Source of the DNA: Neolewinella aurantiaca
GTDB taxonomy: Bacteria > Bacteroidota > Bacteroidia > Chitinophagales > Saprospiraceae
Reading direction: 5' to 3'
Length of the DNA: 64,000 nt
Assembly: GCF_008014675.1 (NCBI RefSeq)
Contig: NZ_VOXD01000002.1
Location: 186,001 to 250,000 of the forward strand
The notes under the pieces: model-generated
What the model was told of the DNA's origin: nothing
The model's database searches: none
What the model saw: only the letters and a program-made list of their open reading frames with translations
Part shown: positions 1 to 18,187 of the stretch, piece after piece
Layout: every line of letters begins with the position of its first letter
How positions within the stretch are numbered: the stretch's first letter is position 1
Made by a program: the position numbers and the translations under genes

Positions 1-157
1 CGGAGTAGCCCTGTCGGTTTTTGAACTGCACAGGGTTGAGAACGGGGATACGGGAAAAACGGAAAGAGTCGCTATTTAGCGATAGCCTGAAAAATCCGAT
101 TCCGTACTGCGTAAAAAAGAAACCGGCGACTCCGATTACGGAGGCGCCGGCAAACAC
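1..157 (-). CDS. Possible 5' part of a membrane-anchored protein, cut by window edge
   Basis: Reading leftwards from a GTG at 157, a frame stays open to the window edge (about 52 codons). It begins with a hydrophobic stretch (FAGASVIGVAGFFFTQYG), then a polar segment ending NPVQFKNRQGYS. A TGA lies a few codons upstream, so the start must be close to here. The layout resembles a signal anchor followed by an exported domain. The family is not recognisable from so little sequence, and the frame could be chance. Confidence 0.35.
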   Translation of the reverse strand, partial: MFAGASVIGVAGFFFTQYGIGFFRLSLNSDSFRFSRIPVLNPVQFKNRQGYS

Positions 158-252
158 ATAATAGGGAAACGTTCATGGGATCAAAAATGGCCTTTCGGCA
201 AGTGGCGTTGGTTGTCTTTTGTGGAGGTACATCGCTTGCGGCGGCAAAGTCT

Positions 253-260
253 TACCTTCG
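253..260 (+). promoter_or_regulatory. Candidate -7 box TACCTTCG ahead of the sigma-factor operon
   Basis: TACCTTCG matches the Bacteroidota -7 element TA-N2-TTTG with one change and lies about 95 nt before the sigma-factor start. No convincing -33 TTG at the usual spacing was seen. The 158-355 stretch otherwise holds no gene. Confidence 0.35.
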
Positions 261-355
261 GACCAGAAAAAAGTAAAAAGTTTTTAGTGCTGCCCTCTGA
301 GTTGAGTCATAAATGGCTCCTTACAGTACTACCGGCTAACCACTATTTATAAAGA

Positions 356-925
356 ATGGCCCGACACTCCGATCATAAATATCTTACAGCATTACGTGAA
401 AACGACTCCCGCTTGCTGGAAGAGTTGTACCGCGAATGCGCGCCTGGCATCATCCGTTGGGTAACGGCAAATAATGGTACAGCGGCCGATGCTGCCGACC
501 TGTTTCAGGAAGCCCTTATCAGCCTGCACCACAGCGCGCATAAACCCGGTTACGAACTGACCTGCCCCATCAATGCGCTCATCTTCACGATCTGCCGTAA
601 CCAGTGGATCAATCAGTTACGTCGTAAAAAAAAGGAATCGGAGGTAAGAATTGTCGAGGCGGAACGATATATACCTGAATCCGCTACGGAGTCGGCCTAT
701 GAGCGCTGGGAGGAGGAACAACTGGAGAAAGAGCAACTGAATACAAGCCTTGCCCAGCTGTCGGCCACCTGCCGCGATCTGCTCCGGTTATTAGGGCGGG
801 GCGTATCGAGTGCTGAAGCAGCTAAAAAACTGGGCATGACGAACGCCAATACGGTGTACCGCCGCAAAAACGCTTGCCTCCAGAGATGGCGGGATTTGTT
901 TGAAGGCATGAATGGATTGAAATGA
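356..925 (+). CDS. ECF-type RNA polymerase sigma factor
   Basis: A 189-residue sigma-70 family protein of ECF size. Region 2 lies at about residues 20-95, with the helix that binds core polymerase and the DLFQEAL and INALIFTICRNQWINQLRRKKK segments. Region 4 lies at about 130-180 and ends in a helix-turn-helix (SSAEAAKKLGMTNANTVYRRKNACLQRW). It should direct polymerase to a small set of promoters. The stop overlaps the next gene's start by 4 nt (ATGA), so the two are translationally coupled. That gene encodes a membrane TPR protein with anti-sigma layout, so this sigma is probably held at the membrane until a signal arrives. The likely targets are its own operon, but no matching promoter motif was identified. 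Confidence 0.88.
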   Translation: MARHSDHKYLTALRENDSRLLEELYRECAPGIIRWVTANNGTAADAADLFQEALISLHHSAHKPGYELTCPINALIFTICRNQWINQLRRKKKESEVRIVEAERYIPESATESAYERWEEEQLEKEQLNTSLAQLSATCRDLLRLLGRGVSSAEAAKKLGMTNANTVYRRKNACLQRWRDLFEGMNGLK

Positions 926-1707
926 AAGAACAGGATTATCTCGACATCGAGGCATATCAGCAGGGGGAACTGCCCTCCGATCAGGTTAAAGCTCTGGTGG
1001 CGCGCGTCACTACAGAACCAGACCTTGCTGCGGTTATGTCTGAGCGGCAATTGCTCAATGATCACCTCCGTGCCACGGCCAAAGAACCCGCACTACGGGA
1101 AACACTGAGCGTGTTGGGCGCAAAATATTTTGCGGATGGAACGGCCCCGAACGGGCAAAACACAACGGCAACGAATAACGAAGCTGTGGTGAAAACATTG
1201 AAACCCCAAAAGAAAAACTGGCTTGTTATCGCAGCGTCGGCAGCGGCAATTCTTCTACTGTTTGTTGTCGGCGGAAAGGTTTTCTTCGGGGAGCAGGACT
1301 CGACGTACGAGCAATTTGCTCAGCACCAGCCCCTCTCGCTCACCGAACGGGGAGACGGTGACAATGGCATCACTCAAGCAGAGGCCGCCTTCAATAATGG
1401 CCGCTACGAAGAAGCTATCCTGCCACTGACAGAATACGTGGAGCTGAACAAAGAAGATGCGCGCGCACGGCTCGCGCTCGGAATATCTTACCTTGAAACA
1501 GGGAACGATGCAGAAGCCATTCGGGTACTTACCGAAGTTGCCGAGACCGGTGGCTCGGTGGCTCCTTACGGTAATTGGTACCTGGCCCTGGCCGCAGTGC
1601 GCAACGACGATAAACCGGCTGCTCTGCGGTACCTCGACCGTATTCCTCCTGGAGATACTTTCCTGGAAGAACGGGTAACGGAGTTGCGACAGGTTGTTGC
1701 GGAGTAG
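922..1707 (+). CDS. Membrane TPR protein, probable anti-sigma partner
   Basis: 261 residues. The N-terminal ~90 residues are soluble and start like many anti-sigma factors (YLDIEAYQQGEL...). A single transmembrane helix follows at about residues 94-114 (WLVIAASAAAILLLFVVGG). The C-terminal part is predicted periplasmic and carries two to three TPR units (residues ~150-255: AEAAFNNGRYEEAILPLTEYVEL, ALGISYLETGNDAEAIRVL). The start overlaps the sigma gene. Cytoplasmic N-terminus, one helix and an outer sensor domain fit a sigma regulator in which the TPRs detect a partner, possibly the downstream CHAT or subtilase protein. No zinc-binding HxxxCxxC motif is seen, so it is not a ZAS-type anti-sigma. 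The role is inferred from position and topology. Confidence 0.75.
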   Translation: MKEQDYLDIEAYQQGELPSDQVKALVARVTTEPDLAAVMSERQLLNDHLRATAKEPALRETLSVLGAKYFADGTAPNGQNTTATNNEAVVKTLKPQKKNWLVIAASAAAILLLFVVGGKVFFGEQDSTYEQFAQHQPLSLTERGDGDNGITQAEAAFNNGRYEEAILPLTEYVELNKEDARARLALGISYLETGNDAEAIRVLTEVAETGGSVAPYGNWYLALAAVRNDDKPAALRYLDRIPPGDTFLEERVTELRQVVAE

Positions 1708-1875
1708 GCGTCGCGGGTTTTCCTCAGTTTTTACCCGGTCTGACTGTAAACAGCTGGCTGGTAACGTTTTTTGTTTCATTTTTTGGCTTTCAAGGGTAAG
1801 AACTGCTTTATAACCTTTATATATGTCTACAGCACCTTAATTTGAGTTTTCCCGGCAATTCTGTAAACGTTCAAC

Positions 1876-3966
1876 ATGAAATCCTTAGTAACTACGCTAA
1901 TCCTCACGGCCTGGATCATGAGCGCTACCCTCAGCGCCCAGTTCTATGCTGAACCGTTCGACGACAACCTCAATGGTTGGGAAGCCGGGGCCATCGGCTT
2001 TGAATTTGACCCCAATGGCGAGGCCGATAACCTGCTGATGTGGGGTCTCCGCACCCGTATTCAGTCCGAATCGCTCGGAGGAGCTATGATTTTTACCGGT
2101 CCGGGAGACTTTGCCCGGGTAACTTCACCAGCGATCCCGCTGCCGGTGCCGGAACTCACAGACTTGTACCTGAGCTTTTACCAGTACTTCGGTACACTGG
2201 GAGGAGGCATGCGCGTATTGGTACAGGGAACCGACGGTGCAACGGTAGATACTGTGCTTCAACAAGGACTTCCGATTGACGGGGAAACCTCAAGCGGCGA
2301 ATATCATCTGATAGACATCAGCGATTTAACCCAATCGGGAGAAATTACGATCCAGTTCTCTATTACCGGAGGGGCCAGTTTCCTGATCATCGATGATGTA
2401 CACCTGTACGACAGTAGACCAGCCCCCGTTACGTTCCCCCGCAATATTGGCGAAGCCCTGACCAGTTTTGGCCTTCCGTTCACCGTTGACTTACAGGGGG
2501 GCGCGGCGGTACCGTTTCAGCTGGTGGCAGATATTGCGCCCGGGTTCACGGAGCTGGAATACGAAGCCTTCCGGAATTTACTGGGCGCAACCGTTGTCCG
2601 TAAATGCGTCTGTGACCGGTTGGAGGTATGGGAAATGCCCGGAGGCCTGTTCTTTGATCCGGCAACCGGTGAGCCGCTCGGCGTCCCCTCGGTGATTCTC
2701 GGTAACACTTTGCCCTCCCAGGGAATGAGCAAAGTCGATGGCCTGGAACTGAACTACTACAACTACAATCAATTGAGCGCAGACCCGGCCTTGCCAAACG
2801 AACCCCTGACCGCCGAAGAGGTTGCTCTTTTCATCCCGGCTCCCACCGATGCCGTAAAAATAGCCATCCTCGATACAGGGATTGACCTGGACCACCCGGA
2901 TCTGAACGGCTACATCTTCAGGGACCCGGACAGCATCGGTGACGAAGTCGACGACGACAGCGATTGCCTGACGGATAATCCTCTTGGATGGAACTATGTC
3001 GATGACAATAATAACCCTAACGACATCAACGGGCACGGAACCCACGTGAGTGGCATCGTGGCGAGGAACCTGAACCTTTGCGATGATTGCGTAGTGCAAA
3101 TGATTCCGTACAAGACGCACAATAACTTTGGCGTAGGTACCCTTTTTGCAACCGCTTGTGCCACCTTGCAGGCGTCTGTTATGGATGGTGCAGACGTGAT
3201 CAACGCCAGTTGGGGCTTTTACGGAGAAGAAGGGAGTGAAATCCTCAAAAACGCAATCGATACGGCCAGGAACTACGGAACCCTGTTCATCGCTGCTGCG
3301 GGGAACGATTCCCTCAACCTGGATTACGATCCCCAATACCCCGCACTGTACGACCTCCACAACGTCGTGGCTGTTGGCGCGCACGATACCATGCCCGGAG
3401 GAATGAGGCCCTACGCTGCTTTTGCTAACTTCAGTTCCGGCGAGGTAGACATAGCCGCTCTTGGGGTAAACGTGGAGAGTTCCATTCCCGGAGGAGGAAC
3501 AGCCCTGAAATCCGGAACATCGATGGCAACACCAGCCGTTGCCGCTGCCGCGTGCCTCTTTGGCTGTGAAAACGGTTTTGACCCCGCCGCAGCACGGGCT
3601 TATATTTTAGATAATGCTTTTAAAGACACAGCATCGGCGGATGTCGTTTTTGAGGGCAGGGCGTTGGACCAATCTGCTTTTTGCAACAAGTCGCCCGAAG
3701 AGGGCGCTGATAATCCGGCTGTTGATTTCAATATTTGCTTCCGCCCGGAGGGTGAGATCATTGACATTATATCCTTTCAGGGGCGTGGCAACACCGTCAT
3801 TGAAGTCTTTAACGTCGAAGGTGGCCTGGTGGCCCGGCAGGAGGTCGGAGAACTTGCCGCCGGAGAGAATCTCGTACTGTCTGTGGAAGGAGCTGCTGCC
3901 GGAATGTACCTGGTTGTGATCACTACCGGGAACCGGGTTTTTACCCAGCGTTTGGTAAAACGGTAG
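1876..3966 (+). CDS. Secreted S8 (subtilisin-like) serine peptidase with T9SS sorting domain
   Basis: 696 residues. A signal peptide (about 1-21, ending TLSAQ) is followed by a ~160-residue beta-rich domain. The subtilase domain then runs from about 325 to 600. The triad is visible: Asp333 (AILDTGIDLDHPDL), His387 (NGHGTHVSG) and Ser549 (SGTSMATPAVAAAA), with the oxyanion Asn near 475 (AAAGND). The C-terminal ~80 residues (IEVFNVEGGLVARQEV...GMYLVVITTGNRVFTQRLVKR) look like a T9SS type A sorting domain, so the enzyme should reach the outer surface or medium. It sits 168 nt after the TPR gene and 21 nt before the CHAT gene, which suggests one operon. Substrate unknown; it may act on the neighbouring CHAT or TPR proteins or on extracellular protein. 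Confidence 0.9.
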   Translation: MKSLVTTLILTAWIMSATLSAQFYAEPFDDNLNGWEAGAIGFEFDPNGEADNLLMWGLRTRIQSESLGGAMIFTGPGDFARVTSPAIPLPVPELTDLYLSFYQYFGTLGGGMRVLVQGTDGATVDTVLQQGLPIDGETSSGEYHLIDISDLTQSGEITIQFSITGGASFLIIDDVHLYDSRPAPVTFPRNIGEALTSFGLPFTVDLQGGAAVPFQLVADIAPGFTELEYEAFRNLLGATVVRKCVCDRLEVWEMPGGLFFDPATGEPLGVPSVILGNTLPSQGMSKVDGLELNYYNYNQLSADPALPNEPLTAEEVALFIPAPTDAVKIAILDTGIDLDHPDLNGYIFRDPDSIGDEVDDDSDCLTDNPLGWNYVDDNNNPNDINGHGTHVSGIVARNLNLCDDCVVQMIPYKTHNNFGVGTLFATACATLQASVMDGADVINASWGFYGEEGSEILKNAIDTARNYGTLFIAAAGNDSLNLDYDPQYPALYDLHNVVAVGAHDTMPGGMRPYAAFANFSSGEVDIAALGVNVESSIPGGGTALKSGTSMATPAVAAAACLFGCENGFDPAAARAYILDNAFKDTASADVVFEGRALDQSAFCNKSPEEGADNPAVDFNICFRPEGEIIDIISFQGRGNTVIEVFNVEGGLVARQEVGELAAGENLVLSVEGAAAGMYLVVITTGNRVFTQRLVKR

Positions 3967-3987
3967 GGTAGGGGCCATTTTTACACC

Positions 3988-6681
3988 ATGAGGCAAAGCT
4001 GGTGGTTGTTTATATGGTCGATATTATTGTGGCCCGTAGGAGTTGTAGTTGGTCAGGATTGTCCGTCTGTAGTTGCAGCGCGTGATTCTATTATCGCTGC
4101 CGCCGACGGCGGCAGTGCCGTTATCAGTTCAATCCGCGAAAACTGCCAGGGAGCTCCTGATTCACTGAGTCGGTTGTACCACGCACTCAGCCTGGCGGCT
4201 TATTATGATCCTTCTGATTTGCCCGCGGCTATAGAGTGGGCCGAAAAGGCACTGGAGGTTCAGCGCAAACTGTACGCTGAAGCCCCCGAAGAACCCCTCG
4301 GGAAGAGCCTTGCCAATCTTGGCTTTTTCTACCGGAAATCAGGCGCTTACACCAGTGCGTTACCTTACCTCAGCGAAGCTGAGGTGGTGTTTACGAAGCT
4401 CGGGAACTGGCGCCGCAGACATAACAACCGGGAAAACATGGTTTACCTGTGGCACGCAACCGGAGACCTGGGACGGGCCGGAGAACTGCTGCCCCGGATG
4501 CTGGCCGAAGCGCGCCAACAGGAGCCTGGCTACAACCGCACCATTGCGGTGGCGGAAACGCTGCGCCTGCTTGGCGTTCAGGCCGACGAAAGTGAAAACC
4601 ACGCCGCGGCGCTCCCTTACCTTCTGGAGGCTTCTCCACTCTTCGCCGAAACCAATGACGTGATGAGCCAGATCGGTACCGATATGGACATCGCCCGGAC
4701 CCTTTACCTGACCAAAGACTACAACGGAGCCCGGCAGAAAGCACAGGAAGTACTTGCGTTTATTGCCCCGTATGATATGCCGTACGAAAAAGCCGTATTG
4801 TACAATCTCCTGAGCCTGATCTATACCGATCAGGGGAAATTTGCACGGGCGGCAGAAATGCTTGAGCCCGGCCTCGAACAGGCTTTGCTGATGGGCAATC
4901 CCAGGGTAGTGGCGTTGCTCTACAACAGCTCGTCGGAACTGGCAATGGCCAGAAAGGACTTCCCCGCGGCCCAAAGGGCCAACATCAGAGCTATCGGAGA
5001 GCTTACGACTGGCTGGACTTACAGTGAGGAATCACCGCTGCCTTCGCCGCCTCAGCTGGCGGCCAGCGAGTTCAAAGTGGACCTGTTCAAATACATTTCT
5101 CATCATGCAAAAGTACTGGCTGAAGGGGGCGAGGACGCAGGTGCAAGGGAAGCTGTCGAAGCAGGGGACGTAACGGCGGATTACCTGCGATCCGATTTTT
5201 CGGGAGAGGTGAGTAAGCTCTTCTGGCGTAAGGAAGCCATGCCGTTGTACGAGCTCGGCATCAGCCTCGCTGCCGCTGCGGGAGATGAGGAAACCTTGCT
5301 TTACCATCTCGAAAAAAGCCGCTCTGTACTTCTGCTGGAGGCCTTGCTCGAGGCCGATCTGCTCGGGCAAATGGATCCCGATCTGGGCACTGAGCTGAGT
5401 GCTTTGGAGGCGGGGTCTCGTGCCGGAGGTGAGTTGTCGGTGGCGGGCAAAGACTCTCTGATCGCCCTGCGGGGGCGCATCGCTGATCAGTACCCCGCCA
5501 CGCGGGAGCTCATCGCCCGCCCCGAAATGGTAAGCCTTTCCGAGGCGAGGGAAAACCTCGCCGCCGGCGGCTGGGACCGGCAGATTCACTTCTTCACCGG
5601 GGCGGAACGAACTTATGCCTTCAGTATCACCGACGAGGAAGTGAAGACCGAAGACCTTGGCCCTTCAACGGATATTGCACCTGCGGTCCGCGCCCTGATG
5701 AGCTTCTTCACCGGCCCGGAGGCCATCGATAAAGATCCGGAGGGCTTTCTTGCCGCGAGCTATAAAGTTTACCGCCTGCTCCTCGAACCGCTTGAGATTG
5801 GGGCAGGCGAAAAACTACTCGTTCTCCCCGACGGATTGCTGGCTTACCTGCCTTTTAACGCCCTGGTTACCGCGGCGGGAGCTGCGGAACTCGGGAGTGC
5901 GCCTTACCTGATCCGGCGCAACCAGGTGAGTTACGCCCAATCGGCTACGGTTCTGGACCGGCAAATGACCGTTGGGGAAGATGGAGCACACGAAAACCTG
6001 GCTTTTGCCCCTTTCGTTACCGCTCTGCCCAACAATACCGCGCCGGCCCTCACTTTCAGTAAAATAGAATTAGAAGGCTTGCAGCGATGGTACGCTGCAA
6101 ACCTGCTTGAAGGCCCCGGGGCTAATCGGTCCGCATTTCTGGAAATGTCCGGAGGGCCCTCCTTGCTCCACCTTTCCACCCACGCATACGCTACCGCCGA
6201 AGCCAACGAACCACCCCGTATTCTCACGGCGGATGCACCCGTTTACCCCGCAGATGTGTACGGCCTGCACCTGAATGCCGATCTGGTGACGCTCTCGGCT
6301 TGCCATTCCAACATCGGTCCGCTGGCCGTAGGGGAAGGCGTGCTCGGGCTGGGCCGGGCTTTCACCGCCGCGGGAGCCCGCGGTGTGGTTGCCAGCCTGT
6401 GGAGCCTGAACGACCGTGCTACTGCAGACATCGTGACTGATTTTTACCGCCAACTCGGTAACGGAGCGACGAAACCACAGGCGCTCCACCAGGCTCAGCT
6501 GGATTATCTGGAACGAAAGGATTTGCCCGGCTACCTGAAATCTCCCTATTACTGGGCGGGGCTCACGTACTATGGCGACGGAGCCGGATTACCGTCAGGG
6601 GGCTGGCCCTGGTGGGCCTGGCTATTGGCCGGGTGCGGAATTGTCCTGGCCGTAGTGGCGATGATCCGTTGGCGGCGCTAA
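3988..6681 (+). CDS. Exported TPR-CHAT (caspase-like) protein with C-terminal membrane anchor
   Basis: 897 residues. A signal peptide (1-22, ending VVVGQ) is followed by about 400 residues of TPR-like helices (residues ~60-350). The C-terminal half is a CHAT domain, the caspase-HetF-associated cysteine protease fold. The catalytic pair is present: His732 in LLHLSTHAYA and Cys772 in VTLSACHSNIGPLAVGEGVLG, followed by the family's RAFTAAGARGVVASLWSLND segment. A final transmembrane helix (about 871-891) ends in WRR, which places the C-terminus in the cytoplasm and the CHAT domain in the periplasm. Known CHAT proteins are mostly cytoplasmic, so this address is notable. It is the last gene of the sigma/TPR/subtilase unit and is probably a protease or scaffold responding to the same signal. 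Confidence 0.88.
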   Translation: MRQSWWLFIWSILLWPVGVVVGQDCPSVVAARDSIIAAADGGSAVISSIRENCQGAPDSLSRLYHALSLAAYYDPSDLPAAIEWAEKALEVQRKLYAEAPEEPLGKSLANLGFFYRKSGAYTSALPYLSEAEVVFTKLGNWRRRHNNRENMVYLWHATGDLGRAGELLPRMLAEARQQEPGYNRTIAVAETLRLLGVQADESENHAAALPYLLEASPLFAETNDVMSQIGTDMDIARTLYLTKDYNGARQKAQEVLAFIAPYDMPYEKAVLYNLLSLIYTDQGKFARAAEMLEPGLEQALLMGNPRVVALLYNSSSELAMARKDFPAAQRANIRAIGELTTGWTYSEESPLPSPPQLAASEFKVDLFKYISHHAKVLAEGGEDAGAREAVEAGDVTADYLRSDFSGEVSKLFWRKEAMPLYELGISLAAAAGDEETLLYHLEKSRSVLLLEALLEADLLGQMDPDLGTELSALEAGSRAGGELSVAGKDSLIALRGRIADQYPATRELIARPEMVSLSEARENLAAGGWDRQIHFFTGAERTYAFSITDEEVKTEDLGPSTDIAPAVRALMSFFTGPEAIDKDPEGFLAASYKVYRLLLEPLEIGAGEKLLVLPDGLLAYLPFNALVTAAGAAELGSAPYLIRRNQVSYAQSATVLDRQMTVGEDGAHENLAFAPFVTALPNNTAPALTFSKIELEGLQRWYAANLLEGPGANRSAFLEMSGGPSLLHLSTHAYATAEANEPPRILTADAPVYPADVYGLHLNADLVTLSACHSNIGPLAVGEGVLGLGRAFTAAGARGVVASLWSLNDRATADIVTDFYRQLGNGATKPQALHQAQLDYLERKDLPGYLKSPYYWAGLTYYGDGAGLPSGGWPWWAWLLAGCGIVLAVVAMIRWRR
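5127..5147 (-). repeat. Dispersed ~20-nt motif, copy 1
   Basis: On the minus strand this matches TGCACCTGCG-NN-CGCGCCC with one change (TGCACCTGCG-TC-CTCGCCC). It lies inside the CHAT gene and is read as GEDAGARE, in the linker between the TPRs and the CHAT domain. Confidence 0.6.
5675..5695 (+). repeat. Dispersed ~20-nt motif, copy 2
   Basis: TTGCACCTGCGGTCCGCGCCC, the consensus with one extra base in the spacer. It lies in the CHAT gene, read IAPAVRAL, in inverted orientation to copy 1 and about 530 nt away. Confidence 0.5.
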
Positions 6682-6750
6682 AGAAGTATTTTGCCCGGAG
6701 AATCCTGTTTGGTTTGCTGCTCAAATAAGTGCCTCCGTGGCTAATTCGAT

Positions 6751-6758
6751 TAACTTTG
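6751..6758 (+). promoter_or_regulatory. -7 box TAACTTTG immediately before the NSS transporter start
   Basis: An exact match to TA-N2-TTTG, 5 nt before ATG 6764. Transcription would begin at or next to the start codon (leaderless), and this supports ATG 6764 over the upstream GTG at 6737, which would lie before the promoter. Confidence 0.6.
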
Positions 6759-6763
6759 CGGCA

Positions 6764-8143
6764 ATGAAATTCACGAAGACAGGCCATATTCTGGCTTCCG
6801 CTGGTGCAGCCATCGGGGTAGCCAACCTTGTAATCTTTCCTTACCGGGTCCACTTTTTCGGTGGCGGTGCCTACTTGTTGGCGTTTGTCGGTTTCACTTT
6901 ACTGATGGGGATTCCGCTGATGGTGCTCGAGAACGCGCTCGGGAAGCGCAGTGGCACCGACGCAGTTGATGCTTTTCGCGGAGAGGGCGATGGCAAAGGC
7001 TGGGCGTGGATAGGCAGGTTGGGCATTGTGACCGCAGTAATGGTGGCCAGTTTTTACCTTGTCCTGGCCGGTTGGACGCTGGACTACGTCTGGCACTATT
7101 TGACCGATTACGAAACCATCGCGGCAAACCACGCCGGGCCAACGTTTGGCGCTGCCATCAGCACTACCGGCAGGGCGTTATTGTTTACCGGTCTGTTTAC
7201 GGCGCTGGTGGCAGTAATTTGTTCGGGCCCGCTGCGTAGCGGAGTGGAGCGGCTGAGCAAACTCGCGATGCCACTGCTTGGCCTGTTGATCATTTTTCTG
7301 GTGATCTCGTTGCCGATTTTACAGCCTGAAGCCGTTGACTACAGCAACCTGTTTCGTTTAGACTGGGATGCTCTGTTCATCCCCACGGAGACGGGGGAAT
7401 TAGGGATATTGCATGCTCTGGGGCAGGCGTTCTTTAGTTTGGGGCTCGGGGCTGCTTCGATGCTGACCTTTGCCACGCACCTTGACCGCAATACCAACGT
7501 GCTGAGCAATGCTCCGATGATTGTTCACCTGGATACGGTAGTGGCGATGCTGGGAGCTATACTGGTGGTTCCGTTACTGGCTAACGTAGAAGGGGATATT
7601 TACAACGGACCACCACTGGTGTTTATCAACCTTGTCGAGATATTTAAAACCTACGGAGCTGTAGGCCAGTGGATCGGGCTGCTCTTTTTTGTACTTCTGG
7701 GGGTTGCAATTCTCACCTCGGCGGTCTCTTTGGTGGAGCCCGCTCTGCGGGCCTTGCAGGCCCAGCGTGGCTGGAGCCGCAGGACTGCGGGCTTATCGCT
7801 CGGTCTGCTCGTATTTGCGCTGTCGGTGCCGGTGGTATTGTCCTGTTCTCCCTCCGGCCCCGGCTGGTTGACAGATTTTGCCGGTATGGGAGGCGCTGAC
7901 CCCAGTATGGGGTACTTCAATTTTCTACTGGAATGGTTCGGGAGTATCTCGTTGCTTATCGGAGGGCTATTACTGTGCCTTTACCTATTGTTCCGCTGGA
8001 CGCTTGATGGGTTCTTTGAAGAGCTGAGTCTTGGTGGTCACGAGGTCTCTCCAAGGTGGAGGTGGCAACTCTCAATTGCATATAAGTATATAATTCCGGT
8101 GGGTATAGGCATCTTATTGGTGGCTAAGCTGTTGGTGCTGTAG
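6764..8143 (+). CDS. Sodium-dependent transporter, SNF/NSS family
   Basis: 459 residues and about 11-12 hydrophobic helices, typical of bacterial neurotransmitter:sodium symporters of the LeuT fold. The N-terminus carries the family signature: HILASAGAAIGVANLVIFPYRVHFFGGGAYLLAF, followed by GIPLMVLENALG. Such proteins bring in amino acids or related compounds with sodium across the inner membrane. Helix 6 shows FFSLGLGAASMLTFATHL, matching the unwound substrate region. The ligand cannot be told from the sequence. The ATG at 6764 is chosen because the family homology starts there and the -7 box lies just upstream. It is transcribed away from, and apparently separately from, the CHAT operon, which ends 83 nt earlier. 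Confidence 0.9.
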   Translation: MKFTKTGHILASAGAAIGVANLVIFPYRVHFFGGGAYLLAFVGFTLLMGIPLMVLENALGKRSGTDAVDAFRGEGDGKGWAWIGRLGIVTAVMVASFYLVLAGWTLDYVWHYLTDYETIAANHAGPTFGAAISTTGRALLFTGLFTALVAVICSGPLRSGVERLSKLAMPLLGLLIIFLVISLPILQPEAVDYSNLFRLDWDALFIPTETGELGILHALGQAFFSLGLGAASMLTFATHLDRNTNVLSNAPMIVHLDTVVAMLGAILVVPLLANVEGDIYNGPPLVFINLVEIFKTYGAVGQWIGLLFFVLLGVAILTSAVSLVEPALRALQAQRGWSRRTAGLSLGLLVFALSVPVVLSCSPSGPGWLTDFAGMGGADPSMGYFNFLLEWFGSISLLIGGLLLCLYLLFRWTLDGFFEELSLGGHEVSPRWRWQLSIAYKYIIPVGIGILLVAKLLVL

Positions 8144-8230
8144 TTGTGAGTTAGCTGAATTTTCATTCTCCATTACCTGTCGGTTCTAAATTCCCTTTTC
8201 ATTTCCAACAATACCCGCAATCTTCTCGAA

Positions 8231-9082
8231 ATGAACCTGGCGATGATCTTCATGGGATCGTCCGGGGCTGTAGGTCGCTACATTCCCCTTGAGCCAGGTC
8301 CTACAATTTGGTGGCGTTGCCTGTTGGCAATGGTCTTGCTGTTTGTGTACTGCAAAGTACGCGGGTTTCAGCTGAAGATCCCCGGTTGGAAGAAGCAGCA
8401 AGCGGTGATTGTTTCGGGTGTTTTATTTGCCAGTCACCTGGTTACCTACTTCTATGCACTGAAACTCTCGAGCGTAGCCATTGGGATGCTTGCGGTGTTT
8501 ACCTACCCGGCTATGACGACCTTGCTGGAGCCCATATTACTCAAACAAAAAATACAGCCCCACCATATTGGTCTGGCGGGCCTCGTACTGGTGGGCGTCT
8601 TCTTTCTCGTTCCGGGCGATGTAGACCTGTCCGACGATACTTTCTTAGGCCTGATGTTTGGTCTTGTATCGGCACTGATTTACTCGCTGCGTAATATTAT
8701 GATGAAAAAGCAGGTGGAGAGTATCCACGGTTCAGTCCTGATGTTCTGGCAAATGCTCGTGGGCGTTGTTGTTGTCGCTCCGGCATTATTCTTCTCTCCC
8801 GGTCTGCCGCCGGTGACCGCAATCCCGTTTCTTGTTAGTCTTGGCCTGATAACCACTGCGATAGGGCATACGCTGTTTTTGGGAAGCTTCAAGCATTTTT
8901 CCATCAGCACGGCTAGTCTTCTCAGTTGCATCCAGCCGGTTTACGGTATTCTGTTGGGTATGCTGATCTTTGGTGAATACCCCGCCTGGACGAGCGTTAT
9001 CGGAGGGGCTCTCATCCTCTCCGCAGTAGTCGTCGAAGCCCGGCAAACTATGGTGAATTCGAAGGTTACAACTAAGGGCTGA
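8231..9082 (+). CDS. EamA/DMT-family transporter
   Basis: About 283 residues and nine to ten hydrophobic helices arranged as two EamA repeats (residues ~1-130 and ~140-275), the layout of drug/metabolite exporters. Features include VAIGMLAVFTYPAMTTLLEPILL in repeat 1 and ISTASLLSCIQPVYGILLGMLIFGEYP in repeat 2. The frame is open upstream to a TGA near 8155, and the residues just before the ATG (NNTRNLLEMNLAM) look like the usual EamA N-terminus. The true start may therefore lie upstream at a non-ATG codon. Substrate unknown. Confidence 0.82.
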   Translation: MNLAMIFMGSSGAVGRYIPLEPGPTIWWRCLLAMVLLFVYCKVRGFQLKIPGWKKQQAVIVSGVLFASHLVTYFYALKLSSVAIGMLAVFTYPAMTTLLEPILLKQKIQPHHIGLAGLVLVGVFFLVPGDVDLSDDTFLGLMFGLVSALIYSLRNIMMKKQVESIHGSVLMFWQMLVGVVVVAPALFFSPGLPPVTAIPFLVSLGLITTAIGHTLFLGSFKHFSISTASLLSCIQPVYGILLGMLIFGEYPAWTSVIGGALILSAVVVEARQTMVNSKVTTKG

Positions 9083-9088
9083 TCGCGA

Positions 9089-9787
9089 TCAATCCGGCAT
9101 TTGCAGCATTTCCCGGCCAGGGCAGGCTTCTTCGCGCGTAAGTGGTTGGTTGTCCGAATCCCAGCAATCTCCGTAGATAGAACAGTAGCAAAAGTCAACA
9201 GCTAAAGTATCCGTTATTTGTTGCCCCGTATTCAGGAGTGTCATATTGATCTTACTCAGAGCTTTCTCTACGGGGGAAAGACTGTCCGTAGTTTCCGGGT
9301 AGAAAACCATTATTTTATACAGTGGGATGGCCTCTCCGGCTGCAAGCACAGAATGTTCCACGGTATGAGACTGTACGGCGTGCAGCACCATGCCTGGATA
9401 TTGGGCGCTCAGATTGGGCAGCAATTCAGCAAGAGAACCGTTGGCTGCGCCAACGGAGAACTCCGTTCCGCTGATGAGCGCCGGCCCAACGCCTTTATTG
9501 GCGAGTGTCGTTTCTATTTCTAAGCCTTTCTCTGTATTCTTCATGGTCACCAGGCTGGCTACATACGGCCAGACTGCTGCCGCTTTCTCTTCCTTCATCA
9601 TTTGTTGCTGATCACGAAGGATTCCCGCTTCGGTGATGGAAATGATGGTACCAACCAGGCTGATCAGAATGGCAACCAATGCCATCCAGAAGGAGGTAGT
9701 TTTTACGGCAGGTTTTTTGGCGGGCATTGCGGGCTGTTTTTCGGATACTGCCGTTAAGAAAAGATATTTGCGCGAGATTTTCTCCAT
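9089..9787 (-). CDS. Small membrane protein of unknown function
   Basis: 232 residues. A basic N-terminus precedes one transmembrane helix at about residues 33-56 (FWMALVAILISLVGTIISIT). A short charged coiled stretch (LRDQQQMMKEEKAAAVWPYV) leads into a beta-rich C-terminal domain of about 160 residues. Helix, then QQQ..KAA.VWPYV, then beta domain is a layout seen in many uncharacterised Bacteroidota proteins. No catalytic motif is visible. It converges with the EamA gene, the two stops being 7 nt apart. Confidence 0.7.
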   Translation of the reverse strand: MEKISRKYLFLTAVSEKQPAMPAKKPAVKTTSFWMALVAILISLVGTIISITEAGILRDQQQMMKEEKAAAVWPYVASLVTMKNTEKGLEIETTLANKGVGPALISGTEFSVGAANGSLAELLPNLSAQYPGMVLHAVQSHTVEHSVLAAGEAIPLYKIMVFYPETTDSLSPVEKALSKINMTLLNTGQQITDTLAVDFCYCSIYGDCWDSDNQPLTREEACPGREMLQMPD

Positions 9788-9837
9788 AAGTCCGGATAAA
9801 GAACTGTCCCATAGCTAAATGTCAACTTCGTAAAACG

Positions 9838-9880
9838 AAAAAGCACCATCCCGGTAACGAAACCGAGACAGCACTTTTTC
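9838..9880 (-). terminator. Possible terminator of the LamG gene
   Basis: An imperfect inverted repeat with A-tract and T-tract ends (AAAAAG...CTTTTT; inner CCGGT/ACCG) about 105 nt downstream of the LamG stop. On the minus strand the stem is followed by TTTTTCGTTTT. Pairing in the middle is weak. Confidence 0.45.
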
Positions 9881-9985
9881 AAAATCAACACTTTTTTACC
9901 GGGCCCGATCACCTCAGGTGATCGTCGCTGGAGCAGAAAGCACCCCCAATGAAGTGGCGTAACCGGGGCAATTAGGCTCTTTTTG

Positions 9986-12900
9986 CTAGAAAATCGTCAC
10001 CCGCTGTGTCATCCGGCCAGTTTTGGTGGCAACGCTGATCAGGTACAACCCTGCCGGGAATTCGCTCACGTCGAACTGTTCAGAGACTGAACCCTGCAGG
10101 TTCAGTGGTCGCGAACTGATCAGTTGTCCGGTCATAGTCCGGACTTCGAGTTGTCCCGTACCGAGAACTTTGGTGGTCAGGATGGCAACCTTCACATGGT
10201 CCGATGCGGGGTTTGGCGAAACGATGAACCGCTCGAGCCCGGCGATGCTGTTGGTGCTCACGGGGGACTCCGTCCGGAACGAGTATGGACCGATCCAGAG
10301 GCTCTGCAGACCAAAATCATCCTCGCAGTTGGACCGTACGTAATACTGGAAGTCGGTACTAGAGGGAAGGAAGGAAAGGTTGAACGTGTCAATGTCAGAG
10401 TTGACAACAATCCCGGTTCCCAGGCTGAAGTTGCTGAAGCCCCACTGGAGATCAAATTGATTAACGGTCTCGGGAGCATCGAAGGCGATGCTTGCGGTGG
10501 TGGGGCCTACTTCGAAGGTGGTGATGTTGGTAGGGGGGCCGCAGGGATCGAGGGTTGCAAACCTGAATGGGCCGGCCCAGGCACTCTTCACATCTCCGTC
10601 GCAGGAGGAACGGACGTAGTAGTCGTAGCTGTTGCTTGCCTCCAGGTTTTCTATTTCGAGCATAGTTTGAGTAACGTCGCTGATGGTGGTACCGGTCCCG
10701 ATCAGGTATCCCGCTGGTCCGTACTCCAGGATATAGCTGTTTGCATCAGCTTCCCAGCTTACGGTCGCGGAGGAAAAGCCTGCAGCAATCAAAGCGAGGT
10801 TGGAAGGTGCAGGGCAGGGCGAAGCGGTAAAGTCGGCCAGGACGATTTCCCGGCGGCTGCCTGCACCTGTCAGCAGGAGTGAATTGTTGCCCGGGTTGCG
10901 TACGGCACCCGATGAGAACCAGGTAGGTACTTCGTTGCTGCCACGGTTGTACAGGTTAAGCGTAGCTTCGGCGGTTACGGCAGCAGGGTCGCCTGCGTAG
11001 TCGTAGGTCAGATCATGAGAGTAGTTTCCTCCTCTGCCGGCCAGAAATGTACCGTAGTAAACACCGTTGTCACCCAGATCGTAGATGCCGTCAGTACTGT
11101 CTGGCTTTGTGTCGACACGGTAAAGGTGCAGCCCGGAGAGCAAGTCGCCCGAAATGTTGTCCAGATTCACAGACCCAAAACCTTCTGCGCCAAGCATAAG
11201 GTTTACACCGTCCCAGTTTTCCGGGTAAATGGTTACGCTTTCGTCGCCCAGGGCTGCGCCGGAGATTATCCGCGATTCTGCGGCGGTAGTGTTTTGGAAA
11301 ATTCCGTGCAATCCGTTGGGGCCGGCGTCGAGTACTTCGTCTCCTTCCGTACGGTCGAGCGGCCAGTAGGCGTAGAGGTCGTCTTCGTCTCCCTCGAGGC
11401 GTTGACACATCAATTCCCGGATCTCCTCAACGGATTTCGCGACTTCCCAGATACGTACTTCGTCGAAAGAACCATCCAGAACAATTTGCTCGTTGTCGTC
11501 TTTGTAAGCTCCAAGTGCGAGCCATGAGTCTGCGTAATCAATGGCTCCTGACTGAGAGGTGGAGGTGCCTTCAAGGATTCCGTTTACGTAGATTCTCTGT
11601 TCGGTACCGTCGTATACGCCCGCGAGGTGAACCCATTCGTTTTCGGCGAAGGTGCTCGTGCTGGACAAATAAGTAAGGCTACTGCCGTTGATTGATTTAA
11701 GGGCGAAGCGCAGCTGTCCTCCGTCGCCGGTTTCGAGGTCAAAACCACGTTCAAAGTTTCCGTTATCCTGCAGGAATCCTACCACACTGTGCCAAATAGT
11801 ATAAGAAGCGGGTTTTACCCAGCACTCCACAGTAATCGCTTCGGTCGGAAGACCGATGCTTTCGGCGCTTACCTTTTGTCCGTCGTTCCCTGAACAGTCG
11901 ACCCAGTCGTCAATACCGTCCATTTTCAGGGCGTTGCCGGGCCCAACCGAGTTGGTGGGTACTTCGGGTTCGCAGCCCGCCGGAGGCGGGCCGGCGGTCC
12001 AGTCGCCGTTGTAAGTTCCGTTGTTCGTTCCGGCAGCATCCAATACGGTGGTTCCGCTGCCTTCATCTGCTTTCCAGTAGTGGAGCAGGTGATCGTATGC
12101 AGGGTGGTCGGTGTCTGCGCCACAGGCGTAGTCGGCAAGGGTGGCCGAGTCCAGCACGGTGGTCCAGTAACGTACTTCAGCTACCTGGCCGGTGAAGTGG
12201 TAATTGCCCGTGCCGTCTGCACCGATGATCAGGTCGAGGTCAGACTCAAGGCTGCCGTCCAGTACCACATCGGTTTCGTCCACGACCACGCCGTCCTGAT
12301 ACAGCTTTTTAGTTCCGTCAGCGTCGTAAGCGATGGCGATGTGGTGCCATTTCTGATCGTTTACTGCGTTGGTGTTCATGTCGATGCGGCCATTTCCCGT
12401 TCCTGCGTTGAAACGCAGGCTGGTCGAATTGCTGTTGCCCGCCAAAATGAAGCCCGGGTTGCTGCCACTGTTCCAGTCTTTATTGGAGATAATGCCCGGG
12501 TCGGCCGACCATCCCGCACTCTTCATGTACAACTCGATGGTGAAGTCGGGCTGGTTATCCAGGTCGAGATCGTTGGCGAGGGTGACCTGATCGTCGCCGT
12601 CCATGTTCAGCGAGTTGAAAGAACTGTCGTTCAGTTCGGTAATGACTACGGTCTGGGTTATTGTGTCACTGCCGCAGGGGCCGTTGACGATGAGTTGAAC
12701 GGTGTACTCGCCCAGTTCGTCGTAGGTGTAAACAGGTTCGCTCAGGGTAGAGGTCTCGCCCGTTCCGAAATCCCAGAGGTAGCTGCTCCCAACTGATGTG
12801 TTGAGGAAAGTAACGGAGGCTCTGTCGATCTCAGGGATGAAGGATGCGGTAGCTTCAACAAAACTGTTGCTGGTCGTCCAGGCAGCGGTGTTCAGCCAGG

Positions 12901-13600
12901 TTGCGTCTTCGTTCCCAACTGCATCAACAGCGGTGTTACCCGTTCCTTCGCCCATCTTCCAGTAGTGGATCAGGTTGTCGTACAGCGCATCACCAGCCGC
13001 AATGCCGGAACACACATCGTACTGATCCGGAGAGACAACGGTGTTGTAAATCCGCACTTCTGCTATTTCGGAAGATGGACCCGTGGAAGAATAGCCGGCG
13101 GAATAATCTCCGGTCCCGTCCATGCCGATGTTGAATGCATGGTCGTTGTTCAGGTCCCCTACACTACTGATGTCGATGCTTTCCACTTCGATGCCGTCCA
13201 GGTAGAGAGTCATCAGGCCGTCGCGGTCGAACGATGCCAAAACGTGGTGCCACAAACCATCGGTGATGTTTCCGGCATCGAGGTCGGCGCGGTTGGTACC
13301 GTCCCCGACGTTTACGTCGATGTTGCCTGCCCCCGGAGAGAGTGCGATGTTGAAACCGGGGTTCGCACCGGCACTCCAGTCTTTGTTGGAAATAATAGCA
13401 GGGTCGCCGTCCCAGCCATCCGTACGTATCCAAAAGCCGATGGAGAAATCCTGGTCGGTCCCGAAGCCTGGTTGCCAGTTCGTCGTCAGGAAATCTGTTC
13501 TGCTGGTCGAACATAGTTGAGCGGCTCCGAAGTCCTGCGCAAACAGGTGCCCGACGGTAACAAAGTACAGCAGTATGAGTAAACACTTGATTGTTCTCAT
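9986..13600 (-). CDS. Secreted multidomain protein: three LamG domains, PKD, FnIII, T9SS sorting domain
   Basis: 1204 residues. A signal peptide (1-21) is followed by LamG 1 (~28-210; FSIGFWIRTDGWDGDPAIISNKDW), PKD (~255-325; YLWDFGTGETSTLSEPVYTY), LamG 2 (~335-520, clearly a paralogue of LamG 1) and LamG 3 (~570-740; ITVECWVKPASYTIWHSVVG). After a linker come two FnIII-like domains (~900-1100; NLALIAAGFSSATVSWEAD) and a T9SS type A domain (~1120-1204; FIVSPNPASDHVKV...GLYLISVATKTGRMTQRV). LamG domains bind glycans or other surface ligands, so this is probably a cell-surface or released binding protein. It has no visible enzyme domain. It is the last gene of the receptor/phosphodiesterase group and may hold the substrate (for example phosphonoglycan or phosphonolipid) near the secreted phosphodiesterase encoded just upstream. 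Confidence 0.88.
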   Translation of the reverse strand: MRTIKCLLILLYFVTVGHLFAQDFGAAQLCSTSRTDFLTTNWQPGFGTDQDFSIGFWIRTDGWDGDPAIISNKDWSAGANPGFNIALSPGAGNIDVNVGDGTNRADLDAGNITDGLWHHVLASFDRDGLMTLYLDGIEVESIDISSVGDLNNDHAFNIGMDGTGDYSAGYSSTGPSSEIAEVRIYNTVVSPDQYDVCSGIAAGDALYDNLIHYWKMGEGTGNTAVDAVGNEDATWLNTAAWTTSNSFVEATASFIPEIDRASVTFLNTSVGSSYLWDFGTGETSTLSEPVYTYDELGEYTVQLIVNGPCGSDTITQTVVITELNDSSFNSLNMDGDDQVTLANDLDLDNQPDFTIELYMKSAGWSADPGIISNKDWNSGSNPGFILAGNSNSTSLRFNAGTGNGRIDMNTNAVNDQKWHHIAIAYDADGTKKLYQDGVVVDETDVVLDGSLESDLDLIIGADGTGNYHFTGQVAEVRYWTTVLDSATLADYACGADTDHPAYDHLLHYWKADEGSGTTVLDAAGTNNGTYNGDWTAGPPPAGCEPEVPTNSVGPGNALKMDGIDDWVDCSGNDGQKVSAESIGLPTEAITVECWVKPASYTIWHSVVGFLQDNGNFERGFDLETGDGGQLRFALKSINGSSLTYLSSTSTFAENEWVHLAGVYDGTEQRIYVNGILEGTSTSQSGAIDYADSWLALGAYKDDNEQIVLDGSFDEVRIWEVAKSVEEIRELMCQRLEGDEDDLYAYWPLDRTEGDEVLDAGPNGLHGIFQNTTAAESRIISGAALGDESVTIYPENWDGVNLMLGAEGFGSVNLDNISGDLLSGLHLYRVDTKPDSTDGIYDLGDNGVYYGTFLAGRGGNYSHDLTYDYAGDPAAVTAEATLNLYNRGSNEVPTWFSSGAVRNPGNNSLLLTGAGSRREIVLADFTASPCPAPSNLALIAAGFSSATVSWEADANSYILEYGPAGYLIGTGTTISDVTQTMLEIENLEASNSYDYYVRSSCDGDVKSAWAGPFRFATLDPCGPPTNITTFEVGPTTASIAFDAPETVNQFDLQWGFSNFSLGTGIVVNSDIDTFNLSFLPSSTDFQYYVRSNCEDDFGLQSLWIGPYSFRTESPVSTNSIAGLERFIVSPNPASDHVKVAILTTKVLGTGQLEVRTMTGQLISSRPLNLQGSVSEQFDVSEFPAGLYLISVATKTGRMTQRVTIF

Positions 13601-13626
13601 GATTATTGTTGAATTAGGGGTGTTGA

Positions 13627-13690
13627 TTGCCAGGGCTCCTCAGATGAACGGGAGCCTGGCAACCACCGGACCAGATGAGTCATCGGGTCC
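13627..13690. repeat. Two hairpins between the phosphodiesterase and LamG genes
   Basis: 13627-13662 pairs TTGCCAGG-GCTCC with GGGAG-CCTGGCAA (one bulge). 13668-13690 is a near-perfect palindrome, GGACC-A-GATGA-G-TCATC-G-GGTCC. Neither has a T tract. They sit in the 122-nt intercistronic gap and may stabilise or process the transcript, giving unequal expression of the two secreted proteins. Confidence 0.55.
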
Positions 13691-13722
13691 TGGATATACT
13701 GGATGAAGAAGAGATTTGTGTG

Positions 13723-14982
13723 CTAACGAAGGATGATCACCCGGTGGCGGAAGGCACGTCCGGAGGTTTCACGTACACCAACGAAGTACATCCCCGCCGG
13801 TACGTCGGAAAGATCGAAGCTGAGTTGCCCTTCGGTACGGGCACTTACTTGTTTGCTGGCAACCGGGCGACCAAGCTGATCAATGATCGTAACACTGGAG
13901 GCAAGGTTGAGCGCAGGGTAGTTTACGGTTACGTTGCGCGAGGTGCTCGGGTTGGGGAATACCTCGAGGCCAGGAAGCTCTTCTACCCGGTTGGCTACCG
14001 AAGTGATGGTGCTGATACTGTCGGGGAGCCAGCTTTTGCCGTCGAGGTCCCAGCGTTCCTGAATGGCAACTCCGGTCATGTCGGCCAGCATCCAGTCCAG
14101 TACTGTTGTTGTGATGTCGGTCAGAACGGGAACCTGTGCGAGTTGGTCGGGGTCCACGGCGTTATCGGGCATCTGGTAAGAACCGGGATCTCCTTCGTCG
14201 GGCAGGGTGACGTTGGGGATGTTGTCTCCGCTGGCGTACCACCAAATGGCCCGTTCGTTGTTGGAGTTGCCGCCGTGGCCAAAGCCCTGGCCTCCGTGGT
14301 CGGTGGTGGAAACGATCATCCAGTCTTCCTGGTCGTAGGTTGGGCGGGCCCGCAGGGCGGCGAGGACTTCGCCGATCTCCTGGTCGACTCCTTCAATAGC
14401 GGTCATGTATCCCGGTACGTCGGGGCTGAAGCCTAAACCGTGGCCGGCAGAGTCGGTCTCGTCGTAGTGGATGAAGAGGAAGTCCAGTTCGGGGTCCAGC
14501 AGCTGGAGTTTGGCGGTCTGGGTCACGAGTCCCTGGCCGAGGTCTCCGGCATCGATTGTCTGGCTCCAGTTGGAGTTGTAAACATTGCCGCCGGCGTTGA
14601 GGTCCGCTTCTCCCATCGGGTTCCAGGTAATGATTTGTACGCACTTAAGGGTGGGATCTGCTTCTCGGAGGCGATTGCTCAGGTAGGGCCAGTCGGCAAA
14701 GTTTGCGCCGGAGTAGCTGTTGTTGGTCACGAGGTGCTTGGCTTCCCAAACGCCGGTCAGCATCGAACTCCACGATGGCCCCGAGCTGGTGATGCCGAGG
14801 TGCCAGGAGTTGTAGGTAGAAATGCCGTTGGCGAACAGCCCGTCCATATTTGGCGTGTTTGCCTGCTGCAATGCGTCCGAACGAACGCCATCGATGCCGA
14901 TGAAAAGCGCTTTGCGCTGCTTTTGCGCGGAGAGTTGGAGCATGAATGCCATCAGGCAAAAGAGGAGTAATAATCTTTTCAT
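13723..14982 (-). CDS. Secreted alkaline-phosphatase-superfamily phosphodiesterase with T9SS domain
   Basis: 419 residues. Signal peptide 1-19, then a type I phosphodiesterase/nucleotide pyrophosphatase fold (~23-320). Two-metal site elements visible: IGIDGVRSDA (metal Asp), SSGPSWSSMLTG (nucleophile Ser/Thr region), HYDETDSAGHG (Asp and His ligands), STTDHGGQGFGHGG (Asp-His and His ligands). Family members hydrolyse phosphodiesters, phosphonate monoesters or phosphonoacetate. The C-terminal ~80 residues (EVFPNPSTSRNVTV...GMYFVGVRETSGRAFRHRV) are a T9SS sorting domain, so the enzyme acts outside the cell. Its neighbours are a TonB receptor and phosphonate-catabolic genes. I infer that it releases a phospho- or phosphono-headgroup from a lipid or glycan for uptake. 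Substrate not shown by sequence. Confidence 0.87.
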   Translation of the reverse strand: MKRLLLLFCLMAFMLQLSAQKQRKALFIGIDGVRSDALQQANTPNMDGLFANGISTYNSWHLGITSSGPSWSSMLTGVWEAKHLVTNNSYSGANFADWPYLSNRLREADPTLKCVQIITWNPMGEADLNAGGNVYNSNWSQTIDAGDLGQGLVTQTAKLQLLDPELDFLFIHYDETDSAGHGLGFSPDVPGYMTAIEGVDQEIGEVLAALRARPTYDQEDWMIVSTTDHGGQGFGHGGNSNNERAIWWYASGDNIPNVTLPDEGDPGSYQMPDNAVDPDQLAQVPVLTDITTTVLDWMLADMTGVAIQERWDLDGKSWLPDSISTITSVANRVEELPGLEVFPNPSTSRNVTVNYPALNLASSVTIIDQLGRPVASKQVSARTEGQLSFDLSDVPAGMYFVGVRETSGRAFRHRVIILR

Positions 14983-15021
14983 GATAATCTTGAATTTACG
15001 AGTAAAGCGATTGATTTTTCA

Positions 15022-15042
15022 GGGGCGCGAACGCCGGTGCAG
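15022..15042 (-). repeat. Dispersed ~20-nt motif, inverted pair left arm
   Basis: Minus-strand CTGCACCGGCG-TT-CGCGCCCC. With the opposite-facing copy at 15099-15117 it makes an inverted pair about 57 nt apart in the gap between the TonB receptor and the phosphodiesterase, as in REP/BIME units. Confidence 0.55.
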
Positions 15043-15098
15043 CGCTGGGGTAGACGGCAGGGGTGAATCCGGTTTTACGCGGCTCTTTATCCCTTCAC

Positions 15099-15117
15099 AC
15101 TGCACCTGCGGTCCCGC
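15099..15117 (+). repeat. Dispersed ~20-nt motif, inverted pair right arm
   Basis: CTGCACCTGCG-GT-CCCGC, directly after the TonB receptor stop codon. It pairs with the copy at 15022-15042. Confidence 0.5.
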
Positions 15118-15118
15118 A

Positions 15119-18109: not shown

Positions 18110-18170
18110 AAATGGACAGTTGATGGCTTGTGCTTTAAATGATGGGCCGGGAGGGCAAGCGTTTTCCTCG

Positions 18171-18187
18171 CTTTTTCTCTCGGAAAC
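18171..18187. promoter_or_regulatory. Degenerate second copy of the operator ahead of the TonB receptor
   Basis: CTTTTT-CTCTC-GGAAAC: the right half-site matches the operator at 18257-18273 exactly, the left half only in its T run. It lies about 65 nt upstream of the receptor start, closer to the probable promoter than the perfect copy. Weak on its own. Confidence 0.3.

Follow-up and report, generated by a model that had tools for sequence, protein, structure and literature searches.

We describe here a four-gene unit at the beginning of a stretch of the Neolewinella aurantiaca genome (the window, that is, the whole 64,000 nucleotides analysed; G000:C17:186001-250000 of a 6.0-Mb genome), whose named close relatives belong to Lewinella and Neolewinella. 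The unit starts after the first 355 bases and encodes an extracytoplasmic function (ECF) sigma factor, an anti-sigma-like membrane protein with tetratricopeptide repeats (TPR), an S8 subtilase and an exported TPR protein with a CHAT peptidase domain (Table 1). These four genes are a recurring unit, whose core is formed by the sigma, anti-sigma and CHAT genes, the gene directly upstream of CHAT being variable. Given this linkage, along with the anatomy of the proteins, we consider it very likely that sigma factor, anti-sigma factor and CHAT protein constitute an envelope module. The best single mechanism that we can propose for it is a first cut of the anti-sigma by CHAT, a prediction from sequence that we hold tentatively, as nearly but not quite an even call.

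Composition and conservation of the unit

All four open reading frames (ORFs) are present and intact. Their coordinates, the 4-nt overlap between the first two (922 versus 925) and the catalytic residues (Asp333, His387 and Ser549 of the subtilase, His732 and Cys772 of the CHAT protein) are exactly as a first-pass annotation of the window had given them; absent from that annotation were the predicted C-terminal transmembrane (TM) anchor of the CHAT protein, the anti-sigma-like N-terminal domain of the membrane protein and a second unit with a shorter S8 in the same genome (L041, G000:C2).

Using the window CHAT protein as a query, we obtained matches in 84 of 149 genomes of the order, from which 80 neighbourhoods were hand-picked, favouring strong matches on long contigs, and labelled with local profiles; one of them (L043) had no CHAT by these profiles, which left 79 CHAT genes. 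A sigma gene lay within 6 kb of 50 of these, a sigma/anti-sigma pair accompanied 45, S8 stood directly upstream of 11, and the full four-gene order was found for 9. The chance expectation of a sigma gene within 6 kb is ~0.086 per CHAT gene, and the resulting P of ~1e-33 is indicative only, since related loci were treated as independent and the sigma density of one genome was used. The genome of the window contains 35 Sigma70_r2, 12 S8 and 7 CHAT matches in 6.0 Mb, with a sigma gene near two of the seven CHAT genes; several CHAT genes per genome are frequent in Bacteroidota. A set of named Bacteroidota loci, made of the best 80 of 165 confirmed relatives ranked by similarity to the CHAT proteins of four-gene units, comprised 82 CHAT genes, with a sigma gene for 65, a sigma/anti-sigma pair within 6 kb for 62, S8 directly upstream of 28 and the full order for 17; since this set was selected by similarity and overlaps in genomes with the order set, its fractions should not be extrapolated to CHAT genes in general. 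Within the genus (21 genomes), 13 places in nine genomes encode an S8 related to that of the window along most of the protein, CHAT being the next gene at all 13 and a co-directional anti-sigma gene preceding at 12, and the full order reaches as far as Phaeodactylibacter luteus and two Chitinophaga. The joint conservation of the four families, which the first-pass annotation had proposed to count, is thus borne out.

The linkage between CHAT and sigma survives rearrangement, as the sigma/anti-sigma pair occurs upstream of CHAT on the same strand, upstream on the opposite strand and downstream on the opposite strand; in six loci of Flavobacteriaceae type (L180, L182, L187, L188, L190, L193), S8 followed by CHAT faces a convergent anti-sigma/sigma pair. 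We compiled 98 sigma-linked units with non-identical CHAT C-termini, some of which share a sigma pair, so that they contain 94 distinct anti-sigmas. Directly upstream of CHAT stands S8 in 26 units, an anti-sigma gene in 4, a gene for another protein in 40 and no close gene in 28. Ten hand-picked upstream neighbours comprised four PKD-DUF7619-DUF7849 proteins, an M16 peptidase, a TPR histidine kinase, an S8 protein (L230), a PPC-domain protein and two proteins without a match. The secreted PKD-DUF7619-DUF7849 protein is encoded directly upstream of CHAT in L186, L192, L215 and L179, and DUF7849 may be functionally tied to the CHAT family beside sigma units; the TPR-containing histidine kinase (L220, 3694-5742), also directly upstream of CHAT, is possibly another signal input.

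On a FastTree phylogeny with 163 CHAT domains, we counted 29 changes of sigma linkage versus a shuffled mean of 50, and 15 of S8 linkage versus 34. Among 27 S8-bearing units, 12 of them from genomes that contribute more than one unit, pairwise distances are correlated between the four proteins (r 0.62-0.80, values that linked inheritance alone would also yield). In 11 of the 27, all four proteins point to the same nearest relative, and in no case does the nearest relative of a protein lie in a second unit of its own genome. Across all 98 units, the distance correlations between sigma, anti-sigma and CHAT are 0.34-0.45.

Table 1. Features of the four-gene unit and its upstream region (positions in the window)
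Feature	Position	Strand	Description
Conserved block GGGAAACGTTCATGGGAT	164..181	+	Upstream of class-I sigma genes
Promoter-like element ATCG-N17-TTACC	231..256	+	Possible sigma-gene promoter, from pattern counts
ECF sigma factor	356..925	+	Sigma70_r2 (PF04542, Pfam) E 2e-8, 34.2 bits vs cut-off 24; TIGR02937 (NCBIfam) 64.4 bits vs cut-off 42.9
Membrane anti-sigma-like protein	922..1707	+	Helical domain 1-70, helix 95-121 read as TM, TPR domain 150-260
Arg143-Gly144 codons, juxtamembrane linker	1348..1353	+	Proposed cleavage site, from conservation of columns 143/144
S8 subtilase	1876..3966	+	N-terminal extension, catalytic domain 325-585, type IX secretion system (T9SS) type A sorting tail 631-696
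Exported TPR-CHAT protein	3988..6681	+	Signal-peptide-like N-terminus, TPR superhelix, CHAT domain 593-864
CHAT protein features	His732 6181-6183; Cys772 6301-6303	+	C-terminal helix 875-896 read as TM

The CHAT protein, the membrane protein and the subtilase

The CHAT domain (PF12770, E 4e-51, 174.6 bits; Pfam) and its dyad identify the fourth protein as a CHAT peptidase, and the His and Cys are invariant in 79/79 sequences of the order and in 54/54 of a Bacteroidota set, the window protein being in both. Hydropathy analysis revealed N-terminal hydrophobic segments in 64 and C-terminal ones in 70 of the 79 CHAT proteins, and both together in 38 of 50 sigma-near proteins, which suggests that the enzyme is periplasmic and anchored in the inner membrane. 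The AlphaFold2 model (pLDDT 91.7, pTM 0.88) is, by Foldseek, nearest to Csx29 (8eey, E 4e-16, TMq 0.45), then to DdvA (8rot, E 9e-13, TMq 0.33) and separase. When a profile of 40 CHAT domains was compared with the PDB, the best match was DdvA (8rot, E 2e-5), followed by Craspase (E 0.0015 and weaker).

The sigma factor is of the ECF type by the profile matches in Table 1, its region 4 being weak by itself (PF08281, E 0.08). Its neighbour, the membrane protein, has a TPR_16 match (E 8e-9; Pfam) and an AlphaFold2 model of mean pLDDT 86 (block means 90-98 at residues 1-50 and 81-83 at 51-70), in which an anti-sigma-like domain of four N-terminal helices is followed by a TM helix and the TPR domain. 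Basic residues ahead of the TM segment suggest that the N-terminus lies inside. Members of this family stand immediately 3' of a sigma gene in 59 of 65 cases, 52 of 102 pairs have overlapping frames, the overlap being 4 nt in 18 of them, and 37 of 54 members match an NCBIfam anti-sigma profile at E<=0.05; an HxxxCxxC zinc motif occurs in none of the 102 pairs. Given the modelled N-terminal domain and the gene linkage, the membrane protein likely binds its sigma factor.

The linker between the TM segment and the TPR domain contains a common motif of the type L-Y-x-x-[F/Y]-...-[R/K]-[G/S]. Among 54 linkers, column 143 is basic in 44 (R 37, K 7; the others M 7, S 2 and Q 1), and column 144 holds G in 34, S in 15, T in 2, N in 1 and a gap in 2. 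A profile built from 70 distinct linkers of other taxa (genus units excluded, as were six Lewinella-like or Phaeodactylibacter loci) gave at least 10.3 bits for 17 of 20 genus units and more than 2.3 bits for 2 of 23 comparison proteins; a first profile (78 units), whose training set took in a few Lewinella-named loci and repeated linkers, had recovered 18/20 and 2/23, respectively. The comparison proteins, confined to sigma loci with a downstream TM protein, were 16 TM proteins beside other sigma genes of the same genome and seven anti-sigmas from other genus genomes. By its fold and established knowledge, CHAT is placed beside the clan CD peptidases. Arg and/or Lys at P1 is given for clostripain, paracaspase, metacaspase, gingipain, separase and PrtH of this clan in passages of PMC4357240.

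The subtilase possesses a Peptidase_S8 domain (E 2e-39; Pfam), whose Asp/His/Ser triad is invariant in 17 aligned sequences including the window, and a T9SS tail that scores below the Pfam cut-off (Por_Secre_tail, E 1e-4, 22.7 bits vs 27) and above that of NCBIfam (31.5 bits vs 23), features that mark it as a T9SS-substrate S8 protein. Owing to this tail, the window S8 should cross the outer membrane; the CHAT protein and the TPR domain of the anti-sigma are predicted to be periplasmic. Only 26 of the 98 sigma-linked units have S8 directly upstream of CHAT. For our main reading, we rejected the subtilase as the switch protease, because 72 units lack it at that position and the window S8 is T9SS-tailed; S8 is thus no constant part of the unit, a point on which the first-pass annotation is not supported.

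A proposed switch and its alternatives

Starting from what we observed (the genes and their conserved linkage, the intact dyads, the similar folds, and the conserved linker motif and upstream element), we infer sigma binding, topology, cleavage, signal and order of events as follows. The membrane protein would hold the ECF sigma factor via its cytoplasmic helical domain, and its periplasmic TPR domain would meet the TPR-CHAT protein, anchored in the same membrane with the catalytic domain in the periplasm. An envelope signal would trigger CHAT, and it is most likely CHAT, not the subtilase, that would cut the predicted site in the juxtamembrane linker, after Arg143 (Lys in class-II units). General intramembrane and cytoplasmic proteases would clear the stump, and the sigma factor, once released, would raise its own operon, including the subtilase and CHAT in this genus. 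The subtilase would be a secreted, interchangeable output or accessory rather than the switch. The protease-gated sigma switch suggested by the first-pass annotation is thus still the best reading, and its interpretation as a whole is partly supported.

Two elements precede the sigma gene. The 18-bp block at 164-181 (<=1 mismatch) is found in 6 of 21 genus genomes, in all six upstream of a class-I sigma gene; it is present in a single copy per genome, except for a second one-mismatch copy in G150, and a search of the 64-kb window allowing up to 3 mismatches still gave one copy. It is missing from the class-I unit of G147 (L047). The promoter-like element ATCG-N17-TTACC, common to Lewinella and Flavobacteriaceae and with a spacing compatible with a -35/-10 pair, is possibly the promoter of the sigma gene. 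As ATC[AG]-N17-TTACC, it precedes 15 of 111 sigma genes versus 1 of 697 other first genes, and 0/109 anti-sigma, 0/100 S8/CHAT and 0/75 other CHAT-operon first genes; at N16-18, the counts are 16/111 for sigma, 0/109 for anti-sigma, 1/100 for S8/CHAT, 0/75 for other CHAT-operon and 6/697 for other first genes, and at control spacings of 12, 22 and 25 it precedes 1, 1 and 3 of the 111 sigma genes. These counts are not independent, since the discovery set and the counting set overlap. A genome-wide regulon was rejected: a longer form of the pattern has one exact match in the genome, at the window sigma gene, and 52 matches with <=1 mismatch versus 25 for a backward control.

Several observations weigh against the proposed first cut by CHAT. 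The promoter-like element covers just 15 of the 111 sigma genes. Column 143 is non-basic in 10 of 54 linkers (the two Chitinophaga units have Ser there, L185 has Gln, and L179, L181 and five genus units with a short S8 have Met), and L048, L055 and L062 score low with the 70-linker profile. The motif also occurs without adjacent CHAT, in L343 and in L330 of the same genome (G000:C11:46000-55500), where the anti-sigma at locus 2182 has the full motif and the nearest CHAT lies ~15 kb off on the same contig. In L338-L341, CHAT is ~3-9 kb away, yet the motif is missing; the related anti-sigmas of these loci possess a different linker, with R and then E, Q or D. Since both exceptions to the profile are members of the anti-sigma family without adjacent CHAT, the motif reads as a mark of this family rather than of CHAT as such. 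Moreover, an alanine scan of Csx30 found no single residue needed for cleavage by Csx29, and a strict P1 rule thus need not hold for CHAT. As for the anti-sigma assignment, the window protein reaches 15.8 bits on NCBIfam NF052375 (cut-off 100), its N-terminal domain matches no anti-sigma family in Pfam (zf-HC2 is found on only 9 of 47 members), and the titles of the best 50 of 1109 Foldseek matches are mainly those of TPR proteins, none being named anti-sigma. A PDB homologue of this domain was rejected, as no anti-sigma was matched there and the matches were chance-like. The full-length fold similarity of CHAT to 8eey and 8rot is moderate, and a PDB sequence search with the window CHAT domain alone retrieved neither Csx29/Craspase nor DdvA.

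Alternatively, CHAT and its secreted partner could be outputs: the anti-sigma would sense the envelope itself and be cut by another site-1 protease, and the sigma factor would induce CHAT and the subtilase, which would act on envelope or foreign proteins. The gene order in the window permits one transcript for all four genes, the sole recognised promoter-like element precedes sigma, and the secreted partners differ between units, all of which this alternative would explain. However, the element is practically absent ahead of S8/CHAT and other CHAT-operon first genes (counts above), so that there is no sign of CHAT being a sigma target there; this argument is weakened by the lack of the element at most sigma genes too. 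That in DdvA the CHAT domain is part of the anti-sigma itself also speaks against a mere output. We regard this alternative as unlikely. CHAT might also be a non-cutting scaffold that senses a ligand and either retains the anti-sigma or lets it go, in effect a DdvA split in two, as the first rank of 8rot in the profile search would suggest; a pure scaffold would not need the invariant His and Cys, aligned in DdvA too, and we find this idea improbable.

We consider equally improbable a relay of two proteases, in which the subtilase would mature or trigger CHAT, or CHAT the subtilase, and the anti-sigma or another target would then be cut, as in caspase cascades. S8 upstream of CHAT does recur in several separated CHAT clades, and the two are neighbours also in L152-L157, where no recognised sigma/anti-sigma pair is close by; however, most sigma-linked units lack S8 directly upstream, and the window S8 is T9SS-tailed, the short S8 proteins of other units being without such a tail. 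In L152-L157, all from the genus, the order of S8 and CHAT varies; the S8 of L153 has a lipobox-like start, and in L153, L155 and L157 S8/CHAT stands beside a sugar-isomerase-like gene (by reading) and one for a small membrane protein, a divergent pair that we rejected as sigma/anti-sigma.

A phage defence island was rejected as well, as PADLOC on the four proteins returned a generic subtilase model and a weak CARF match on sigma, and the neighbours are housekeeping-like in a partial check (upstream genes read by eye from protein starts, three downstream proteins scanned with Pfam). Downstream of CHAT follow genes for a member of the sodium symporter family and an EamA transporter, so that the unit seems to end at CHAT. 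Of 17 unit S8 proteins, 5 match IteS, an anti-phage S8 model of NCBIfam, at E<=0.001, and a defence role for the unit is conceivable.

Relation to known systems

The nearest solved folds being Csx29/Craspase and the anti-sigma DdvA, coupling of CHAT to sigma is already known, and the statement of the first-pass annotation that it knew of no described system with this four-gene make-up does not hold for the principle. The logic is known from Craspase, and its fused form is suggested by DdvA. According to passages of PMC10028731, Craspase couples the TPR-CHAT protease Csx29 to Csx30, an inhibitor of an ECF sigma factor; a TPR-CHAT protease, an ECF-sigma-inhibiting protein and an ECF sigma (CASP-sigma) are thus common to both systems, Csx30 being likened to the window anti-sigma by description. 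Csx29 is triggered by target RNA via Cas7-11, whereas the window CHAT is predicted to be exported and membrane-anchored. Membership in type III-E Craspase was rejected: the window's contig has no RAMP-family gene, the two RAMP-family matches of the genome lie on contig C26 (G000:C26:52625-54988, separate frames of 228 and 524 aa), and no direct repeats >=20 bp within 120 bp were found in window 1-20000. Rfam gave no match in window 1-16000. At C26:54104-54129, on the other strand, the promoter-like pattern recurs with one mismatch, quite possibly by chance.

The PDB entry 8rot, a CHAT-domain protein, is titled 'transmembrane anti-sigma factor DdvA'; according to passages of two papers, DdvA is the anti-sigma of DdvS in Myxococcus xanthus, and DdvS controls a defence island. 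Our comparison, which rests on PDB titles, one alignment and such passages of other papers, shows a transmembrane ECF anti-sigma with a CHAT domain whose His and Cys align with the window family. DdvA is one fused protein, whereas the window has two (anti-sigma-TM-TPR and signal peptide-TPR-CHAT-TM), and a DdvA-type single polypeptide was rejected in view of the separate ORFs (Table 1).

DegS is a serine protease, whereas the window encodes a cysteine protease beside its sigma/anti-sigma pair. In RseA/DegS/RseP-type systems, as told in parts of PMC10028731, a protease cuts the membrane anti-sigma first and others finish. CalpL/CalpT/CalpS likewise release an ECF sigma factor by proteolysis of the anti-sigma, as described in passages of PMC11417357, but the protease is a Lon-SAVED protein triggered by cyclic tetra-adenylate (cA4). 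In the literature searched, outside which most subscription papers lie, we found no paper on a periplasmic two-protein form in Bacteroidota; eLife.52696 contains no mention of CHAT, sigma factor or anti-sigma and one of subtilisin.

We speculate, while considering it rather doubtful in this generality, that periplasmic separase-like CHAT proteases dedicated to ECF anti-sigmas, which they would cut at a conserved juxtamembrane basic residue, exist throughout the Bacteroidota, and that Craspase (CRISPR-captured) and DdvA (fused) are special cases of this older and commoner partnership. The unit supplies a concrete candidate cleavage site, a catalytic residue and a reporter. If the idea holds, the CHAT-sigma logic of Craspase and DdvA could have its origin here, and bacteria would use caspase/separase-like proteolysis routinely, to carry an envelope signal to transcription.

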